Part shown: one piece after another, positions 10,170 to 21,129 of the stretch | How positions within the stretch are numbered: the stretch's first letter is position 1 | Layout: each line of letters starts with the position of its first letter | Origin: a virus | Direction: 5' to 3' (one strand) | IMG/VR virus record: IMGVR_UViG_3300022937_000171 | Location: 1-21,641 of that record | Length of the DNA: 21,641 nucleotides | Notes under the pieces: generated by a model | What the model was told of the DNA's origin: nothing | Database searches by the model: none | What the model saw: the letters and a program-made list of their open reading frames with translations, nothing else | Made by a program: the position numbers and the translations under genes

Positions 10170-10182
10170 CTAAATATAAATA
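10170..10182 (+). promoter_or_regulatory. Late promoter for gp54 (overlapping CTAAATA and TATAAATA)
   Basis: CTAAATA at 10170-10176 runs into TATAAATA at 10175-10182, the latter the exact T4 late -10 element. The expected start, about 10188, is about 16 bases before the gp54 ATG at 10204. No -35 box is needed for T4 late promoters. It lies in the only gap between the divergent late blocks. Confidence 0.75.
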
Positions 10183-11879: not shown

Positions 11880-14704
11880 TGAAATCAAAGCAAATAGGAT
11901 TAACTGAATATAATGATGCCATACTTTCGGTGTATGGTGCGAATCCTGTTGCCGCTTTGAGAGGGACGAAGACAACTGCTCCAGATTTAAAAAAGGATCC
12001 TAAAAAAGAATCGAAACCTAAAGCAGGGACTCTTGTAAAGGAAACACTTCGTCTTAGAAATACTGCAGTTTTAAACTTAAAACTTGCAAAGAAAATACAG
12101 AAGTATGAAAAGGAGAGGTTATCTCAACTTAAATCATTATTAGATAAGGATGAAACTTCTGAGCAAAAGGGTAATAACTCTCAGGAAAAGAGAGAAGAAG
12201 AGGAATTATCTAAAAAGAATTCTCCTTGGTTTAAAAATCTTTTAAATAAATTAAGGAATCTTGTAAAGAAGACACTAAAGAAACTTTATAAGAAATTAGT
12301 TCCTAAATCAGTACGTTCTCGGTTAAGATTGCTGAGAAGAAGAGTTAATGCTTTTAAGAGAAGAGTAAATGTTAATATAAAAAGGCAGTGGAGAAACTTC
12401 ACTAAACCCCTTAGACAAGCTAGAAGATTTATTGCTCCAATCAAGAGAAACATTGGGGTAAGATTTCGACGTGCTCAAAGAAATTTAACAAGACCTTTTA
12501 GACAAACTAAAAGATTTGCTGAAACTGTAGTTAAGAATCCAAAGAAGGCATTACTGCAAACTCAACAGGCACTTACAAAAGCAAAAGATGCAGTTACTTT
12601 TGGTGCCACTAAAGTAAGGCAGTTTGCTGAGCCTGGAGTTAGGGCAGGTAGGGAGTTTGTTGGTCAGAAGGTTAATCAGGGTAAGAAAATTGTAAGTGAG
12701 GGATGGGATACTGCTAGATCAGTATATAATTTCTCACGAGAAATGATCTCCCAAGCAAGTGGTAAACCACCTGTCCCAGGGGGAGGAAATAGATTTGGAT
12801 TTCTCAATAGATTTTCAGGTATTGGTCAAAAATTAAATAAAGCAAGAATGGGTGTCATGGGGGGCATTCAATCTGCCGTTAAGGGTGGTCAACAGATTGG
12901 AGAAGCAATTGCTTCTAGGTGGTCAAAGTGGAAAGCAGTTCTTACTGATCCACAAACTTATGCAAAAATCAAAGAGGGTGCAAATGCAGCATTTAATAAA
13001 TTAAAAGGTGCTGCACAAAAATTATATGATGATTTTATTACTTGGTTAGCAGGAACAAAGTGGTTTAGAGAAGCAATAGAAAGTAGAATTGGTAGAAAAG
13101 TAACAGAGATTTTAATTAAAAAGGGTGGGAAATTAGCACTTAAGAAAATTCTTACTAGATTAGTTGTTGGTCTTGGTACTGTTCTTGCTCTTTGGGAAAT
13201 GGTAGAACGTTGGAGTAAGGGTGATTATGAAGGTGCTGCATTGTCTGCATTAGGTGCTATTCCATTTATAGGATTAGTTGCTGTTGTTGTTGATATTTTA
13301 AGAGAACTGTTTCCAAAGTCCTGGGAAAGTATTGTCTCTCAAATGACAGGTAAGACAGAAGAAGAGAGAAATGAGGGTATTAAAAAAACATACGATGCTA
13401 CAGTTAAGGGATACGAAGATTATGGCACTGGCATAAATGATGCTGGATTTGGTGCTGGGTTTGCTGCAGCGGCGGAAGGTATGGAAACTGGCAATACCCC
13501 ACAGATGGTTATTGTCGGAGATGGGGGTGAGGAGGAATTCATCGTTCCAAAAAGTAAACTTGCATACTTCTTAGGATCTGAAACTGCACTTGAGTTCTTG
13601 AATTTTGGAAGTGGGCAATTAATTTCCTCTGTTCAAGAATATCTGGATAAAACTGGAATTGGTAGCAAGGCGAAAGCATCTATCAGAGAATTATCTGAAG
13701 TTAAAGATTTACCAGTACAGAAAGGGAATAATATTAGAGGCATACAACCAGTTGGAAGTAAAATTGGTGATATTGTTAATAAAGTTATAAAATTCCTTAC
13801 CGAAGGATTTGAAAGTATTTTGGAACCAATTAAAAAGATCTTTGATTGGATTAAGAAAAATGTTTTAGAGAATCCATTAGTGCGTGGTGCTATGGGACTT
13901 GCTGAAGGTGTTACTAATTTCTTTTTGGGTGGACCAGCACAAGCAGCAAGTGGACCACCAGCGGCAGTTGATCCTTATACTGGATCAATTAGTGGTGATA
14001 CTTTTATGCCACTTGCTAGTGCTGACGCTGCTGGTGGTAGAACTTCTGCCCAATCATTTGGTGATACTGCTGCACGTGGGGGTAGAAAACATTTAGGTAT
14101 TGATATTACAGAACACTCAAGAGCAGATTCTAGAGCACCAGTAGTTGCATATAAAACAGGAACAGTAACTGTTGCTCAAGCGAGTAATGTTTACCCATAT
14201 GGAGAAGTGATGGTTGATCATGGAAATGGATTATCAACGAGATATCTGCACATCACCCCATCTTCAAATGTTAGAGTTGGAAAAAAAGTGTATGGTGGTC
14301 AAGAAGTTGGAAAATTATACAAGTACTATAGTAGTAGCGGTGGAGAACAAACTCACTTACACTTTGAGGTATATCAAGATGGAAAAATTGTTGATCCAAC
14401 TTCATATGTAAGAAACGCAAAGAATAAACTTTCTGCACCTCTTACTGCAGCAAGGGCACAAGCGCAACACACAGCAGCATCAACTCCAGCGACTCCAATA
14501 AATAAAGATACTACAGTAGGTGAAGATCCTAACGTTGCTGCGGAAGAAGGTATGTTTATGGATTTCCTGTCAAGAAAAGCATCCCAACCATCACAATCAG
14601 CGCCACAACTCATTCCAATGCCCATTCCATTTGGCGGTCTTTCTTTAGCATCTGGTAGAACCCATAGTCCAGCATGGGGTCATGCAAGCGTAATAGGTAA
14701 CTAA
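11879..14704 (+). CDS. Giant tape-measure-like hub protein with M23 endopeptidase domain
   Basis: From ATG 11879 (TAATG overlap with gp51) it has 941 residues. An N-terminal coiled-coil region is followed by a very basic stretch (about 120-240, many K and R). Two hydrophobic segments lie near 424-445 and 452-474, and the motif V-I-V-G-D-G-G-E-E-E-F-I-V-P-K-S-K, which I know from tape-measure proteins, follows. An M23 (LytM-type) peptidase domain spans about 725-850, with zinc ligands H738 and D742 in H-L-G-I-D, and H828 in H826-L-H828-F-E-V. It should cut peptide cross-links in the cell wall during entry. By position and architecture it replaces T4 gp29 as a candidate tail-length ruler. An in-frame ATG at 11792 lies inside gp51 and is not preferred. 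Confidence 0.8.
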   Translation: MKSKQIGLTEYNDAILSVYGANPVAALRGTKTTAPDLKKDPKKESKPKAGTLVKETLRLRNTAVLNLKLAKKIQKYEKERLSQLKSLLDKDETSEQKGNNSQEKREEEELSKKNSPWFKNLLNKLRNLVKKTLKKLYKKLVPKSVRSRLRLLRRRVNAFKRRVNVNIKRQWRNFTKPLRQARRFIAPIKRNIGVRFRRAQRNLTRPFRQTKRFAETVVKNPKKALLQTQQALTKAKDAVTFGATKVRQFAEPGVRAGREFVGQKVNQGKKIVSEGWDTARSVYNFSREMISQASGKPPVPGGGNRFGFLNRFSGIGQKLNKARMGVMGGIQSAVKGGQQIGEAIASRWSKWKAVLTDPQTYAKIKEGANAAFNKLKGAAQKLYDDFITWLAGTKWFREAIESRIGRKVTEILIKKGGKLALKKILTRLVVGLGTVLALWEMVERWSKGDYEGAALSALGAIPFIGLVAVVVDILRELFPKSWESIVSQMTGKTEEERNEGIKKTYDATVKGYEDYGTGINDAGFGAGFAAAAEGMETGNTPQMVIVGDGGEEEFIVPKSKLAYFLGSETALEFLNFGSGQLISSVQEYLDKTGIGSKAKASIRELSEVKDLPVQKGNNIRGIQPVGSKIGDIVNKVIKFLTEGFESILEPIKKIFDWIKKNVLENPLVRGAMGLAEGVTNFFLGGPAQAASGPPAAVDPYTGSISGDTFMPLASADAAGGRTSAQSFGDTAARGGRKHLGIDITEHSRADSRAPVVAYKTGTVTVAQASNVYPYGEVMVDHGNGLSTRYLHITPSSNVRVGKKVYGGQEVGKLYKYYSSSGGEQTHLHFEVYQDGKIVDPTSYVRNAKNKLSAPLTAARAQAQHTAASTPATPINKDTTVGEDPNVAAEEGMFMDFLSRKASQPSQSAPQLIPMPIPFGGLSLASGRTHSPAWGHASVIGN

Positions 14705-17349: not shown

Positions 17350-18672
17350 ATGACAACCCCATATCAAATTAGAAATTTTCAAATCGATTCTGTGGGAGTG
17401 ATGTTCCATGATGGATCTTCAGTTTACATTGACAAAGGATCTATTCTTCAATTAGAGTATAGAGAAGGATTGTTTGACAAATTTCTGACAGTAACTCTCA
17501 AGATTATGGATACCACAAGTAGAATATCCAATGCACTTGTTGGTATGGAAATGTTTGAGGTTGTCTTTACTGATACTCAAAATGGAGTAAAGTTTGAGTT
17601 TACTGCGAACTCAACTAATGGTCCACTGTACGCATATAATGTTCATAGTAAAGATATTTTAGATACTGGTAAATCCTTTGTTGTTGAGTTGTGTAGACAA
17701 GATGCAATTCTTTCTATGCAAAAAAGAGTATGTAAGAAATACTCAAGTGTAGATGCTCCTGCTCTTATTAAGGATATCATTGGGGGTGAACTTGGCAATA
17801 CTAAGAAACCTGTAACAGCAACAAAAAGCGTCAATAAGATTACCTTTGTTCCACCAAGTTCAAGACCTCTTGATGTACTAATTTGGGCAAGAAATAAGTT
17901 TATTGGTGATGATCAGAAGTCCACAAAATCAGGTGGCAAGTATACTAGTGCTGGATTCTTATTTTATGAAACTTATAGGGCATATAATTATGTTTCGGTG
18001 GATACTATTTCTGGTCAAACTGGACATAAAGTAACTCTAACTACGGGCACTGGAACTGGAGTTACTCAAGATGCATTTAGGGTAGAAAATCCTAAATTTG
18101 TCAATACCATTGATATGGTTGAAAATTTTGATAGAGGGTTTTATTCGGGGCAAATTGAATTCTTTGATATTGTCAATTGTAATATGACCACAGAAAAGTA
18201 TACATTGAAGGAATTGTATCCAACCTGGAATAAAATAGGCAGCAGTAATTACCTACCTTCAATGAATAGTGCTGCTATGAATGAAGATTTAAAACCAGTT
18301 GCTCCAGAATCTCCAGCAGTTCATAGTAAATATGCAACTAGAAATATGTTGGTTGCATATAATAAGGACTTGTTTGCTGGATCAGGAGAAAGTGCAGATC
18401 AAGATGCTGAGATTTTTAGACAAACTGTGTTGCAATCGGTATCTAGATTAGGCATCTTTATGAGTCAGGTCTTGACAGTTACCTGTAATGTTGGTAATAT
18501 GGATCTATATGCAGGCGATCCCGTGTTCATCGAATTTTTCGATTCTCAAGGAGAGATTGATACACAACACTCAGGACGCTACATAATTGCTGATTTGACT
18601 CACCTATATACAAGAGGCGAAGACAAGTTAAAAACTTACCTTACACTTATACGAGATTCATTCGGACTCTAA
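17350..18672 (+). CDS. 27: Baseplate hub protein gp27
   Basis: This 440-residue protein is a little longer than T4 gp27 (391). It shows the hub pattern: an N-terminal strand set (F-Q-I-D-S-V-G-V-M-F-H-D-G-S), L-Q-L-E-Y-R-E-G-L-F-D-K-F-L-T-V-T-L-K-I, then F-V-V-E-L-C-R-Q-D-A-I, a D-V-L-I-W-A-R-N-K-F-I segment and a C-terminal G-D-P-V-F-I-E-F-F-D tube-like domain. gp27 is a trimeric ring linking the tail tube to gp5 and forming the channel for DNA. It begins 2 bases after the SleB gene and is followed closely by the CP12-like gene and gp5, so the order 27-x-5 keeps the partners together. Confidence 0.85.
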   Translation: MTTPYQIRNFQIDSVGVMFHDGSSVYIDKGSILQLEYREGLFDKFLTVTLKIMDTTSRISNALVGMEMFEVVFTDTQNGVKFEFTANSTNGPLYAYNVHSKDILDTGKSFVVELCRQDAILSMQKRVCKKYSSVDAPALIKDIIGGELGNTKKPVTATKSVNKITFVPPSSRPLDVLIWARNKFIGDDQKSTKSGGKYTSAGFLFYETYRAYNYVSVDTISGQTGHKVTLTTGTGTGVTQDAFRVENPKFVNTIDMVENFDRGFYSGQIEFFDIVNCNMTTEKYTLKELYPTWNKIGSSNYLPSMNSAAMNEDLKPVAPESPAVHSKYATRNMLVAYNKDLFAGSGESADQDAEIFRQTVLQSVSRLGIFMSQVLTVTCNVGNMDLYAGDPVFIEFFDSQGEIDTQHSGRYIIADLTHLYTRGEDKLKTYLTLIRDSFGL

Positions 18673-18673
18673 A

Positions 18674-18901
18674 ATGGAAAACATCGAAACCCATATTGAG
18701 AAGGACAAAGAGATTCTTCAGAATCCTATGACCTCTCCACAACAACGTCGTCATATTGAAGAAGAACTGCACGACTTAGAGGAATACGTAGAGCATCACA
18801 AAGCAGACATTGCCGCAGGTGATCATCATGATCCAACGCCACTTGAACTCTATTGTGATCAGAATCCAAGCGCATTAGAATGTAAAATCCACGATAATTA
18901 A
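18674..18901 (+). CDS. Small protein with CP12-like C-terminal motif
   Basis: This 75-residue protein is mostly helical and charged (E-K-D-K-E-I-L; R-R-H-I-E-E-E-L-H-D-L-E-E), with a His/Asp-rich hinge (H-H-K-A-D-I-A-A-G-D-H-H-D). It ends T-P-L-E-L-Y-C61-D-Q-N-P-S-A-L-E-C70-K-I-H-D-N. This end matches the GAPDH-binding tail of CP12 (D-P-L-E-x-x-C-x-x-N-P-x-x-x-E-C-R-x-Y-D-N) with the exact eight-residue gap between the cysteines. The CP12 core A-W-D-x-V-E-E-L and the N-terminal Cys pair, which bind PRK, are missing. It may therefore bind GAPDH only. It lies between gp27 and gp5, suggesting late expression. Function is inferred. Confidence 0.7.
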   Translation: MENIETHIEKDKEILQNPMTSPQQRRHIEEELHDLEEYVEHHKADIAAGDHHDPTPLELYCDQNPSALECKIHDN

Positions 18902-18906
18902 TAACT

Positions 18907-21129
18907 ATGTTAGGGGGAGCACCAACACTAGAATCTAACTATTGGTTTGGCGCACAGGGTAATCGTCTTTGGGTAGGTCAGGTTGAAGGTGATGGAGATA
19001 CCCTCATCGATGGAACTAAAGTCGAAGACAAAGACGAGTCATATCGTGTGAAAGTGCGAATCATGGGATATCACACTAGGAGTAGAAAGGATCTACCTCC
19101 TAAGGATCTTCCATGGGCATCTGTTATGATGCCAACTACTGAAACGATTACTAGAGACAGTGCTGGATCTACTCATGGTCTGGAAAATGGCATGTGGGTT
19201 CTTGGTCTTTTTATGGATGGTGAAAGTGCTCAACAACCAGTGGTCATGGGATCATTGGGTATTGTTGATAAGAACCAACCATACGAAGATAGATTAGATG
19301 ATATTGGCGGCACAAATAATTTTCCATCAGTAGAGAAAGTATTAAAGACAAGAGAGCAGAATAAATCTCCTGGTGGACATGGTGCTTCAGGGCGTGGTTC
19401 TAATAGGGGAACTGCTAGTAATGCTGATCAACGTCAATCAGAAAATGAAAAGGTAGTAATTGCTGTTGCGAATGGAAAGTGTGGACCAAGACCTGAAAAT
19501 GAGATCTCTAGAATTCTAGGAGATCTGTTTAAGTTTCTAAGTCAAAATGAATCTGTTGGTGGTGTACTAGTTGATAAACTAACAGGTAATATTACAACAA
19601 CTGCTTCTCTCATTCAAGGTTACTTTGGTAGATTGGCAAATGCAGTCAATTCTCTTCTTGGTGATATCAAAACTCTTGTAGTTGCTGAACTCAAGAAATT
19701 ATTTGAGACAACATTACTTCCAATTATTACAGGACTTACTGCTACACCAACTGGGAGAGGTGTAGCAATTACTGCTGGAATGACCTTTGCCGATGTTTTG
19801 TTTGAGATTATTAAATGTATTTTTCAAACTGTACTTGAAAAAGTATATGGTTTGATTCTCGATATCTTAACTGCATTGGTTGAGGATGTTCTTAACACAG
19901 CATTCTGCCAAGTTAGCAACATCTTGAAGAGTATTGTAAAAGAAATTGAAGGTGCAATTGGATCTGCTTTAAGTTCTCTTGGTGAGATTACTTCTTTGAT
20001 TGGAGGTCTTGGTGGATTTGATGCTAATTTCGTTCAACAGATTGGAAATCTAATTTCAATGTTCTGTGATGGAAAACTTGCTTGTATTATTGGTATTGGT
20101 GATTACACCACTGGAGTTGGTGATAGACCAGACAATTCTGTTAATGCTTTCTTCAATCGATTGGAGACATTTGGTGGATTGCCAAATGAAGTTAACACTG
20201 GTCTTTATGGATCTGATTCGTTCCTTGCATCAATTGAAGGAACTGAGATTAGAGACAGTGACGGTAATATTGTGTCGGGAACTTTAGATTGTAATAAAGC
20301 AACATCATTTAACTTCCCAATGATTCCAAATATGTTCTTTACTGGACTTCAAAATGAACTCGATAAGTTTACTTTGAAGGGGAGTGAAATTTTATATGAA
20401 GAGAGTAATTACAGTCCATATCCACAACCAAGTTATAATCCAAGTAACCCAACCCCTTATGCGGTGCCAGTAATTAATGGTTATGGTGAGGTTGTTGGTG
20501 GTGTTGTAACTAATCCTGGATTTGGTTTAGATAATCCACCAAACGTTACTGTTTATCCTGCTCCTGGATGGGGTGGTGGTGCTGAGGTTACTGCAACATT
20601 GGATTCTAATGGCGGAGTTCAAGATATTGTTGTATTGAATGGTGGCGGTGGATATCCTTGGTTTGATGGATCTGTATCAACTGCAGATATTACTTCTACA
20701 GATGAAAATGGAGATCCAAATTATGATAATATTCACGGAATATACACTGGTAATCAATACTGGTTAGGTATTATCACTGAGAATAACCCACCAATTGTAA
20801 TTAAGACAGGTGGTGGATATGACCAAACTTGCGGTATCATTGTAGAACCAGGAGATAATGAAGTTAATGAAGTTGTTCTTCCAGAATTGAGACCCATTAT
20901 TGAAGATGGATTCTTAGTTGGCGTTGAAGTTTTGAAGGAAGGATTTGGATTTACTGCATTGCCTAAGATCTATATGTCTTGTGGTAGTACCGTATCTTTA
21001 GGATCTCAAAGAAAAGCAGTTATCAAACCTGTTTTGAAATTTATTCCTAGAAAAGATTCCCAGGAATACCTTAATAACTATGATGAGTATAGAACTATCA
21101 TTGACTGTGTTGGTCATCCAGGAGTATAA
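18907..21129 (+). CDS. 5: Baseplate hub protein gp5, without a visible lysozyme domain
   Basis: This 740-residue protein begins with the OB-fold of gp5/VgrG-type hub proteins: W-F-G-A-Q-G-N-R-L-W-V-G-Q-V-E-G, D-E-S-Y-R-V-K-V-R-I-M-G-Y-H, L-P-W-A-S-V-M-M-P-T, and G-L-E-N-G-M-W-V-L-G-L-F-M-D-G. A long, mostly helical and hydrophobic central region (about 190-410) follows. The last ~200 residues contain repeated G-x-G-[FY]-type turns with P-x-[VIK] strands. No T4-lysozyme catalytic Glu/Asp/Thr arrangement is seen, so it probably does not cut peptidoglycan. It forms the membrane-attack hub with gp27. The next gene encodes the beta-helix that is the C-terminal half of gp5 in T4. Confidence 0.8.
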   Translation: MLGGAPTLESNYWFGAQGNRLWVGQVEGDGDTLIDGTKVEDKDESYRVKVRIMGYHTRSRKDLPPKDLPWASVMMPTTETITRDSAGSTHGLENGMWVLGLFMDGESAQQPVVMGSLGIVDKNQPYEDRLDDIGGTNNFPSVEKVLKTREQNKSPGGHGASGRGSNRGTASNADQRQSENEKVVIAVANGKCGPRPENEISRILGDLFKFLSQNESVGGVLVDKLTGNITTTASLIQGYFGRLANAVNSLLGDIKTLVVAELKKLFETTLLPIITGLTATPTGRGVAITAGMTFADVLFEIIKCIFQTVLEKVYGLILDILTALVEDVLNTAFCQVSNILKSIVKEIEGAIGSALSSLGEITSLIGGLGGFDANFVQQIGNLISMFCDGKLACIIGIGDYTTGVGDRPDNSVNAFFNRLETFGGLPNEVNTGLYGSDSFLASIEGTEIRDSDGNIVSGTLDCNKATSFNFPMIPNMFFTGLQNELDKFTLKGSEILYEESNYSPYPQPSYNPSNPTPYAVPVINGYGEVVGGVVTNPGFGLDNPPNVTVYPAPGWGGGAEVTATLDSNGGVQDIVVLNGGGGYPWFDGSVSTADITSTDENGDPNYDNIHGIYTGNQYWLGIITENNPPIVIKTGGGYDQTCGIIVEPGDNEVNEVVLPELRPIIEDGFLVGVEVLKEGFGFTALPKIYMSCGSTVSLGSQRKAVIKPVLKFIPRKDSQEYLNNYDEYRTIIDCVGHPGV
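20488..20985 (+). repeat. Degenerate G-x-G-[FY] beta-repeats in gp5
   Basis: Four units are seen: V-V-T-N-P-G-F-G-L-D-N-P-P-N-V, V-V-L-N-G-G-G-G-Y-P-W, V-I-K-T-G-G-G-Y-D-Q-T and V-E-V-L-K-E-G-F-G-F-T-A-L-P-K-I. Each has a strand, a Gly-rich turn with an aromatic, and a second strand. They look like a surface-exposed beta-repeat module added to the hub. Confidence 0.5.

Follow-up and report, generated by a model that had tools for sequence, protein, structure and literature searches.

Phage-encoded CP12 is, according to the accepted proposal, an inhibitor of the Calvin cycle (PMC3906501, PMC9406205). The phage gene and its site near gp5 are already known and have been in print since 2010, as the text of Sullivan et al. 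2010 (PMC3037559) places cp12 either "near gp5" or in the region of psbA. On the host side, the marine picoplanktonic cyanobacteria are described in a review as the group without classical CP12 (PMC3906501), and the structure 6gfo presents CP12 bound to GAPDH. Here, a window of 21,641 nucleotides (positions 1 to 21,641 of IMG/VR virus record IMGVR_UViG_3300022937_000171) was analysed, in which a small gene is located directly upstream of a gp5 homologue (Table 1). A sequence-only reading had taken this gene for a short, hub-linked form of CP12; the results presented below show that it is a standard phage cp12.

Identification of the gene as cyanophage cp12

The open reading frame of the small gene encodes MENIETHIEKDKEILQNPMTSPQQRRHIEEELHDLEEYVEHHKADIAAGDHHDPTPLELYCDQNPSALECKIHDN, with the C-terminal end PLELYCDQNPSALECKIHDN. 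Its final 23 residues, DPTPLELYCDQNPSALECKIHDN, fit the pattern and the C-x8-C spacing written out in the sequence-only reading exactly, and the proposed GAPDH-binding type of tail is thereby borne out letter for letter. The Pfam CP12 family (PF02672) matches the protein with an E value of 5.7e-11 and 43.5 bits, compared to a curated cut-off of 22.7 bits, and the match aligns residues 2-74 with positions 3-70 of the 70 in the profile; C61, P65 and C70 supply the C-terminal CxxxPxxxxC motif of the family. This agreement is far beyond chance. In addition, PHROG_627 covers residues 1-75 (E 2.3e-40), and this family takes in the P-HM2 CP12, the S-RSM4 gene and host CP12 as well as the window protein. 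Orthology to cyanophage cp12 follows from the shared PHROG_627 membership of the P-HM2 protein and from a tblastn search that reaches T4-GC337 of Syn19. All aligned members, phage and host (44/44), match Pfam CP12, and the family profile retrieves only CP12 chains from the PDB (6gfo, 3qv1, 6kez and 3b1j), the best being 6gfo over residues 2-75.

Across 372 phage records, tblastn placed a cp12 homologue at one position per record, and many of these are annotated as CP12 or carbon metabolic regulator. No second copy in one phage was detected in these 372 records or, by profile, in ten records. Some CP12 genes are recorded only as hypothetical, at 7441-7653 of contig L327 (SRSM4_226) and at 7809-8075 of contig L086 (PSSM2_066).

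Table 1. Positions of cp12, its parts, its neighbours and candidate promoters in the window
Feature	Position	Strand	Basis or remark
Possible T4-type late promoter TATAAATA	10175..10182	+	Ahead of the tail/hub gene run
Upstream tail protein, T4-GC15 / PHROG_350	17350..18672	+	PHROG_350 E 4.8e-62; synteny with Syn19_016 and others
Possible cp12 promoter, TTGACA-17-TAATAT, the second hexamer preceded by TG (extended -10)	18472..18500	+	Inside the upstream gene; 10 of 12
cp12	18674..18901	+	75 aa; cyanophage CP12, PHROG_627 / T4-GC337 family
N-terminal and core region, residues 1-54, without cysteine	18674..18835	+	Inside the Pfam match; 41-56% host identity
Putative GAPDH-binding tail, residues 55-75	18836..18898	+	Aligns to CP12 chains 3zdf, 6gfo, 6kez, 3qv1 and 3b1j
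C61 and C70	18854..18856; 18881..18883	+	Tail cysteines of the cp12 product
Downstream gp5 baseplate hub / tail lysozyme homologue	18907..21129	+	Pfam Gp5_OB E 3.7e-6; PHROG_1922 E 2.5e-78

The N-terminal half and its relation to host CP12

Host CP12 proteins were gathered by phylum-wide family and protein searches. In cyanobacteria with small genomes (about 1.6 to 3.7 Mb, as in picocyanobacteria), CP12 is mostly 72-77 aa long, is 41-56% identical to the phage protein over residues 1-74 and also has no N-terminal cysteines; a scan of genome contigs with the phage protein yielded two weak loci only. In a tree, phage and picocyanobacterial CP12 group together, apart from four-Cys CP12, with support of 100/100, although the few alignment columns limit its detail. 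The window protein has no cysteine in residues 1-60, and at the place aligned with the AWD_VEE core of classical four-Cys CP12 it reads ELHDLEE. The absence of N-terminal cysteines in phage CP12 is a trait common to the host lineage. The earlier claim that the PRK-binding half is missing therefore does not hold: the CP12 match spans the whole protein, which lacks no more than the N-terminal cysteine pair, and the host CP12 of picocyanobacteria, likewise without these cysteines, is laid out in the same way over its full length.

A tentative alternative to binding of GAPDH alone, plausible but rather doubtful, is that phage CP12 acts as a full scaffold on which GAPDH and PRK assemble into a ternary complex. 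The full-length match, a predicted N-terminal helical hairpin and strong selection on the N-terminal region among 152 coding sequences are consistent with this, whereas the lack of N-terminal cysteines and the loose retention of the AWD_VEE core as LHDLEE speak against it. Published work points in both directions: CP12 of S. elongatus, Galdieria and Cyanophora has no N-terminal Cys pair, and the ternary complex still forms with the proteins of the first two, but PRK binding is weak in a CP12 mutant lacking the N-terminal disulfide (PMC9406205). Because the S. elongatus and Galdieria complex survives the absence of the N-terminal pair, PRK binding is not to be counted as lost.

Constraint on the tail and predicted fold

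The sequence-only reading had named the lack of a CP12 profile match, or the loss of either tail cysteine in related phages, as counting against its proposal. Every one of 246 viral loci, which encode 190 distinct proteins, retains C-x8-C; these loci were collected with peptide patterns that in part touch the tail, and the set may lack a few divergent forms. Together with the profile match, these invariant cysteines therefore leave the CP12 identity intact. The overall pN/pS in a set of 152 distinct coding sequences was 0.24, synonymous sites being close to saturation, and phage CP12 is under purifying selection. C61, P65, E69 and C70 are invariant in these sequences, as is the linker GDHHDP.

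An AF2 model built with an alignment of the window and IMG/VR loci reached a pLDDT of 91, with predicted helices at residues 4-16, 22-41, 43-47, 56-63 and 68-73; the first two are the main helices of the N-terminal and core region, and the last two surround the Cys pair. Lower confidence (mean 59) is confined to the last five residues. This model was used in place of a single-sequence prediction, which was poor (pLDDT 72). A Foldseek search of the model against the PDB returned nothing significant, and in VIA-align the chain 6gfo_E (full-length CP12 with GAPDH) scored a Z of 4.2, tied with unrelated helical hairpins; for these reasons, the fold search is not counted as proof.

Seven histidines of phage CP12 are near-invariant (H7, H27, H33, H41, H42, H51 and H52); several are common to picocyanobacterial CP12, and four-Cys CP12 lacks most of them. 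These residues may bind metal. At the very end of the tail (18890-18898 in the window), about a third of phage sequences read HDN, and most others, like the hosts, read YDD; the exchange of Y73 for H goes together with that of D75 for N.

The sequence-only reading had also raised the idea that the tail is a redox-sensitive loop for another purpose. That such a loop serves another partner, GAPDH not being its target, is improbable. The invariant GDHHDP linker and the histidines, which have no counterpart in four-Cys CP12, would fit such a loop, and the replacement of Y by H73 and of D by N75 in part of the phage sequences, including that of the window, is a possible counterpoint to GAPDH binding; however, the features of GAPDH-bound CP12 tails are kept, and host CP12 has the same layout.

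Genomic context of cp12

In the window, cp12 starts 1 base past the T4-GC15 gene, and gp5 begins 5 bases past the cp12 stop. The gene had been placed between gp27 and gp5; the downstream neighbour is indeed gp5, but the upstream gene is the T4-GC15 tail protein, for which the name gp27 is not confirmed (no Pfam match). Among the 80 loci nearest to the window, T4-GC15 is upstream in 71/78 and gp5 downstream in 73/73 of those with enough sequence, and in a more diverse locus set the counts are 44/71 and 54/57. The linkage of cp12 to the hub genes is real, but not obligatory.

The slot between T4-GC15 and gp5 agrees with the known cyanophage cp12 sites (near gp5 or in the psbA/talC region). Syn19 has T4-GC15, CP12 (T4-GC337), cpeT, small genes and gp5 in this order, and the slot is already annotated "CP12"; in P-RSM4, ACG-2014d and S-MbCM7, cp12 is similarly placed and follows the T4-GC15 gene, the P-RSM4 copy also being annotated CP12. 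In P-HM2, GC15 lies directly before gp5 with no cp12 between them, and CP12 is found beside talC. In S-PM2, GC15 is followed by gp5 without cp12, and the text of the 2010 paper likewise gives this phage as one without the gene (PMC3037559). In P-TIM68, cp12 stands before baseplate wedge genes. If cp12 encoded a hub protein, every relative would need it in its hub locus, which P-HM2 and S-PM2 contradict; since the hub works without cp12 in relatives, a structural role is argued against, and a hub role of the product is unlikely. The place beside gp5 is one usual site and says nothing on a baseplate role. Nor is a hub-linked form a special one: the window gene belongs to the same T4-GC337 / PHROG_627 family as ordinary phage cp12, including the copy beside talC. 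It is a further instance of an auxiliary metabolic gene that is already known, and to read a structural role from its neighbours was to read too much.

That the product belongs to the baseplate hub or the virion is very improbable, and so is the variant in which it would travel in or on the particle and enter with the DNA to inhibit GAPDH as infection starts, before phage genes are expressed. The conserved place in the nearest loci and the tight spacing to both neighbours would fit, but GC15 adjoins gp5 without cp12 in P-HM2 and S-PM2, and P-HM2 and P-TIM68 carry cp12 elsewhere. The protein matches host CP12 over its whole length and has no additional virion domain, and the main text of Sullivan et al. 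2010 lists CP12 separately from the structural proteins of the virion (PMC3037559).

Candidate promoters and timing of expression

A late-type motif precedes the tail/hub run (Table 1), and the late motif NATAAATA has been reported for cyanophages (PMC2984593). Between 10969 and cp12, there is no match to TATAAATA or CTAAATA, and a weaker ATAAATA is found at 14498. Accordingly, cp12 could be read late, and its tight spacing to the tail gene and gp5 makes late co-transcription with the structural genes possible.

The late expression proposed by the sequence-only reading is nevertheless not established, as host-type promoter matches are enriched upstream of hub-sited copies. The candidate inside the upstream gene of the window (10/12) is not above chance for the window alone and is, on its own, no more than suggestive. 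In the 250 bases upstream of cp12 at 94 non-redundant hub-sited loci (from L002-L244), sigma-70-type sites that match at 10/12 positions or better occur in 24/94 loci, compared to 32/376 neighbouring control segments (Fisher p 2.4e-5), an expectation of 7.2 from shuffles and 2/81 gp5 starts. Sites of 11/12 occur in 9/94 loci, compared to 5/376 segments and 0/81 gp5 starts. The enriched matches stand at differing positions, and P-RSM4 has a perfect TTGACA-17-TATAAT that starts 66 bases upstream of cp12. These matches suggest that hub-sited cp12 may have a private, earlier, host-type promoter inside the tail gene, which is a modest new lead rather than a finding. If so, a metabolic gene among late tail genes would keep its own schedule within a structural operon. 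In the P-HM2 transcriptome, auxiliary genes including cp12 fall in the middle cluster, and cp12 is strongly expressed in light infection (PMC5082946); this timing is not carried over to hub-sited cp12, because the P-HM2 gene lies elsewhere.

Proposed function

Based on the results presented above, the gene is very probably the ordinary, host-type auxiliary gene cp12 of a T4-like cyanophage, the tail of which would close on host Gap2 and slow carbon fixation. By analogy with CP12 biology, GAPDH binding, redox control and an effect on flux are the most likely activities. Once the product is made during infection, a C61-C70 disulfide would give the terminal stretch of ~20 residues a helix-loop-helix fold, and the redox-closed tail would enter the coenzyme pocket of the host Calvin-cycle GAPDH (Gap2), while the helical N-terminal region might also recruit PRK. 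Consequently, Calvin-cycle flux and carbon fixation would be slowed, leaving NADPH and carbon available to the pentose phosphate pathway and to nucleotide synthesis for the phage.

It is worth noting that host carbon fixation ceases about 2 h earlier with S-RSM4, which is described as having cp12 in addition to talC, gnd and zwf, than with S-PM2, which is without them (PMC10665884). As the S-RSM4 CP12 (70 aa, annotated as a conserved hypothetical protein) sits in the hub slot, this gives physiological support for the hub-sited form, although it is indirect, and talC, gnd and zwf confound the comparison.

Comparison with known CP12 systems

Marine picocyanobacterial CP12 resembles the phage protein in its end-to-end alignment, the lack of N-terminal cysteines and the C-x8-C tail, which ends in YDD where the window phage has HDN. 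The linker HHKxEIxAGDHHDP is a feature of phage CP12 and, among host genomes, occurs in one only (L135). In this 1.8 Mb cyanobacterial genome, the CP12 gene at 1501-1734 has the phage-like linker HHKEEIEAGDHHDP and adjoins an Obg-like GTPase gene; the shared linker hints at phage-host exchange. Four-Cys CP12 of other cyanobacteria and plants (6gfo, 3qv1 and 6kez) shares the C-terminal tail and the overall CP12 profile, but it has the N-terminal Cys pair and the AWD_VEE core and is about 27-29% identical.

Among phages, a CP12 of the P-SSM2 type (T4-GC63 / PHROG_2603) has the C-terminal tail in common with the window protein and often occupies the same slot, but it is 87-89 aa long with a different N-terminal region. 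The PHROG_2603 gene follows T4-GC15 in 40/80 contigs (L245-L324), and thus two divergent CP12 families use one slot. The closest likeness is to Syn19_017, PRSM4_025, PHM2_227 and SRSM4_226, which share the family, the Cys pair and the tail with the window cp12 and are 70-82 aa as annotated. Syn19, P-RSM4 and S-RSM4 also share its slot after T4-GC15 and ahead of gp5, whereas PHM2_227 lies beside talC; apart from a five-residue linker insert absent from PHM2_227 and SRSM4_226, only sequence divergence separates these proteins from that of the window.
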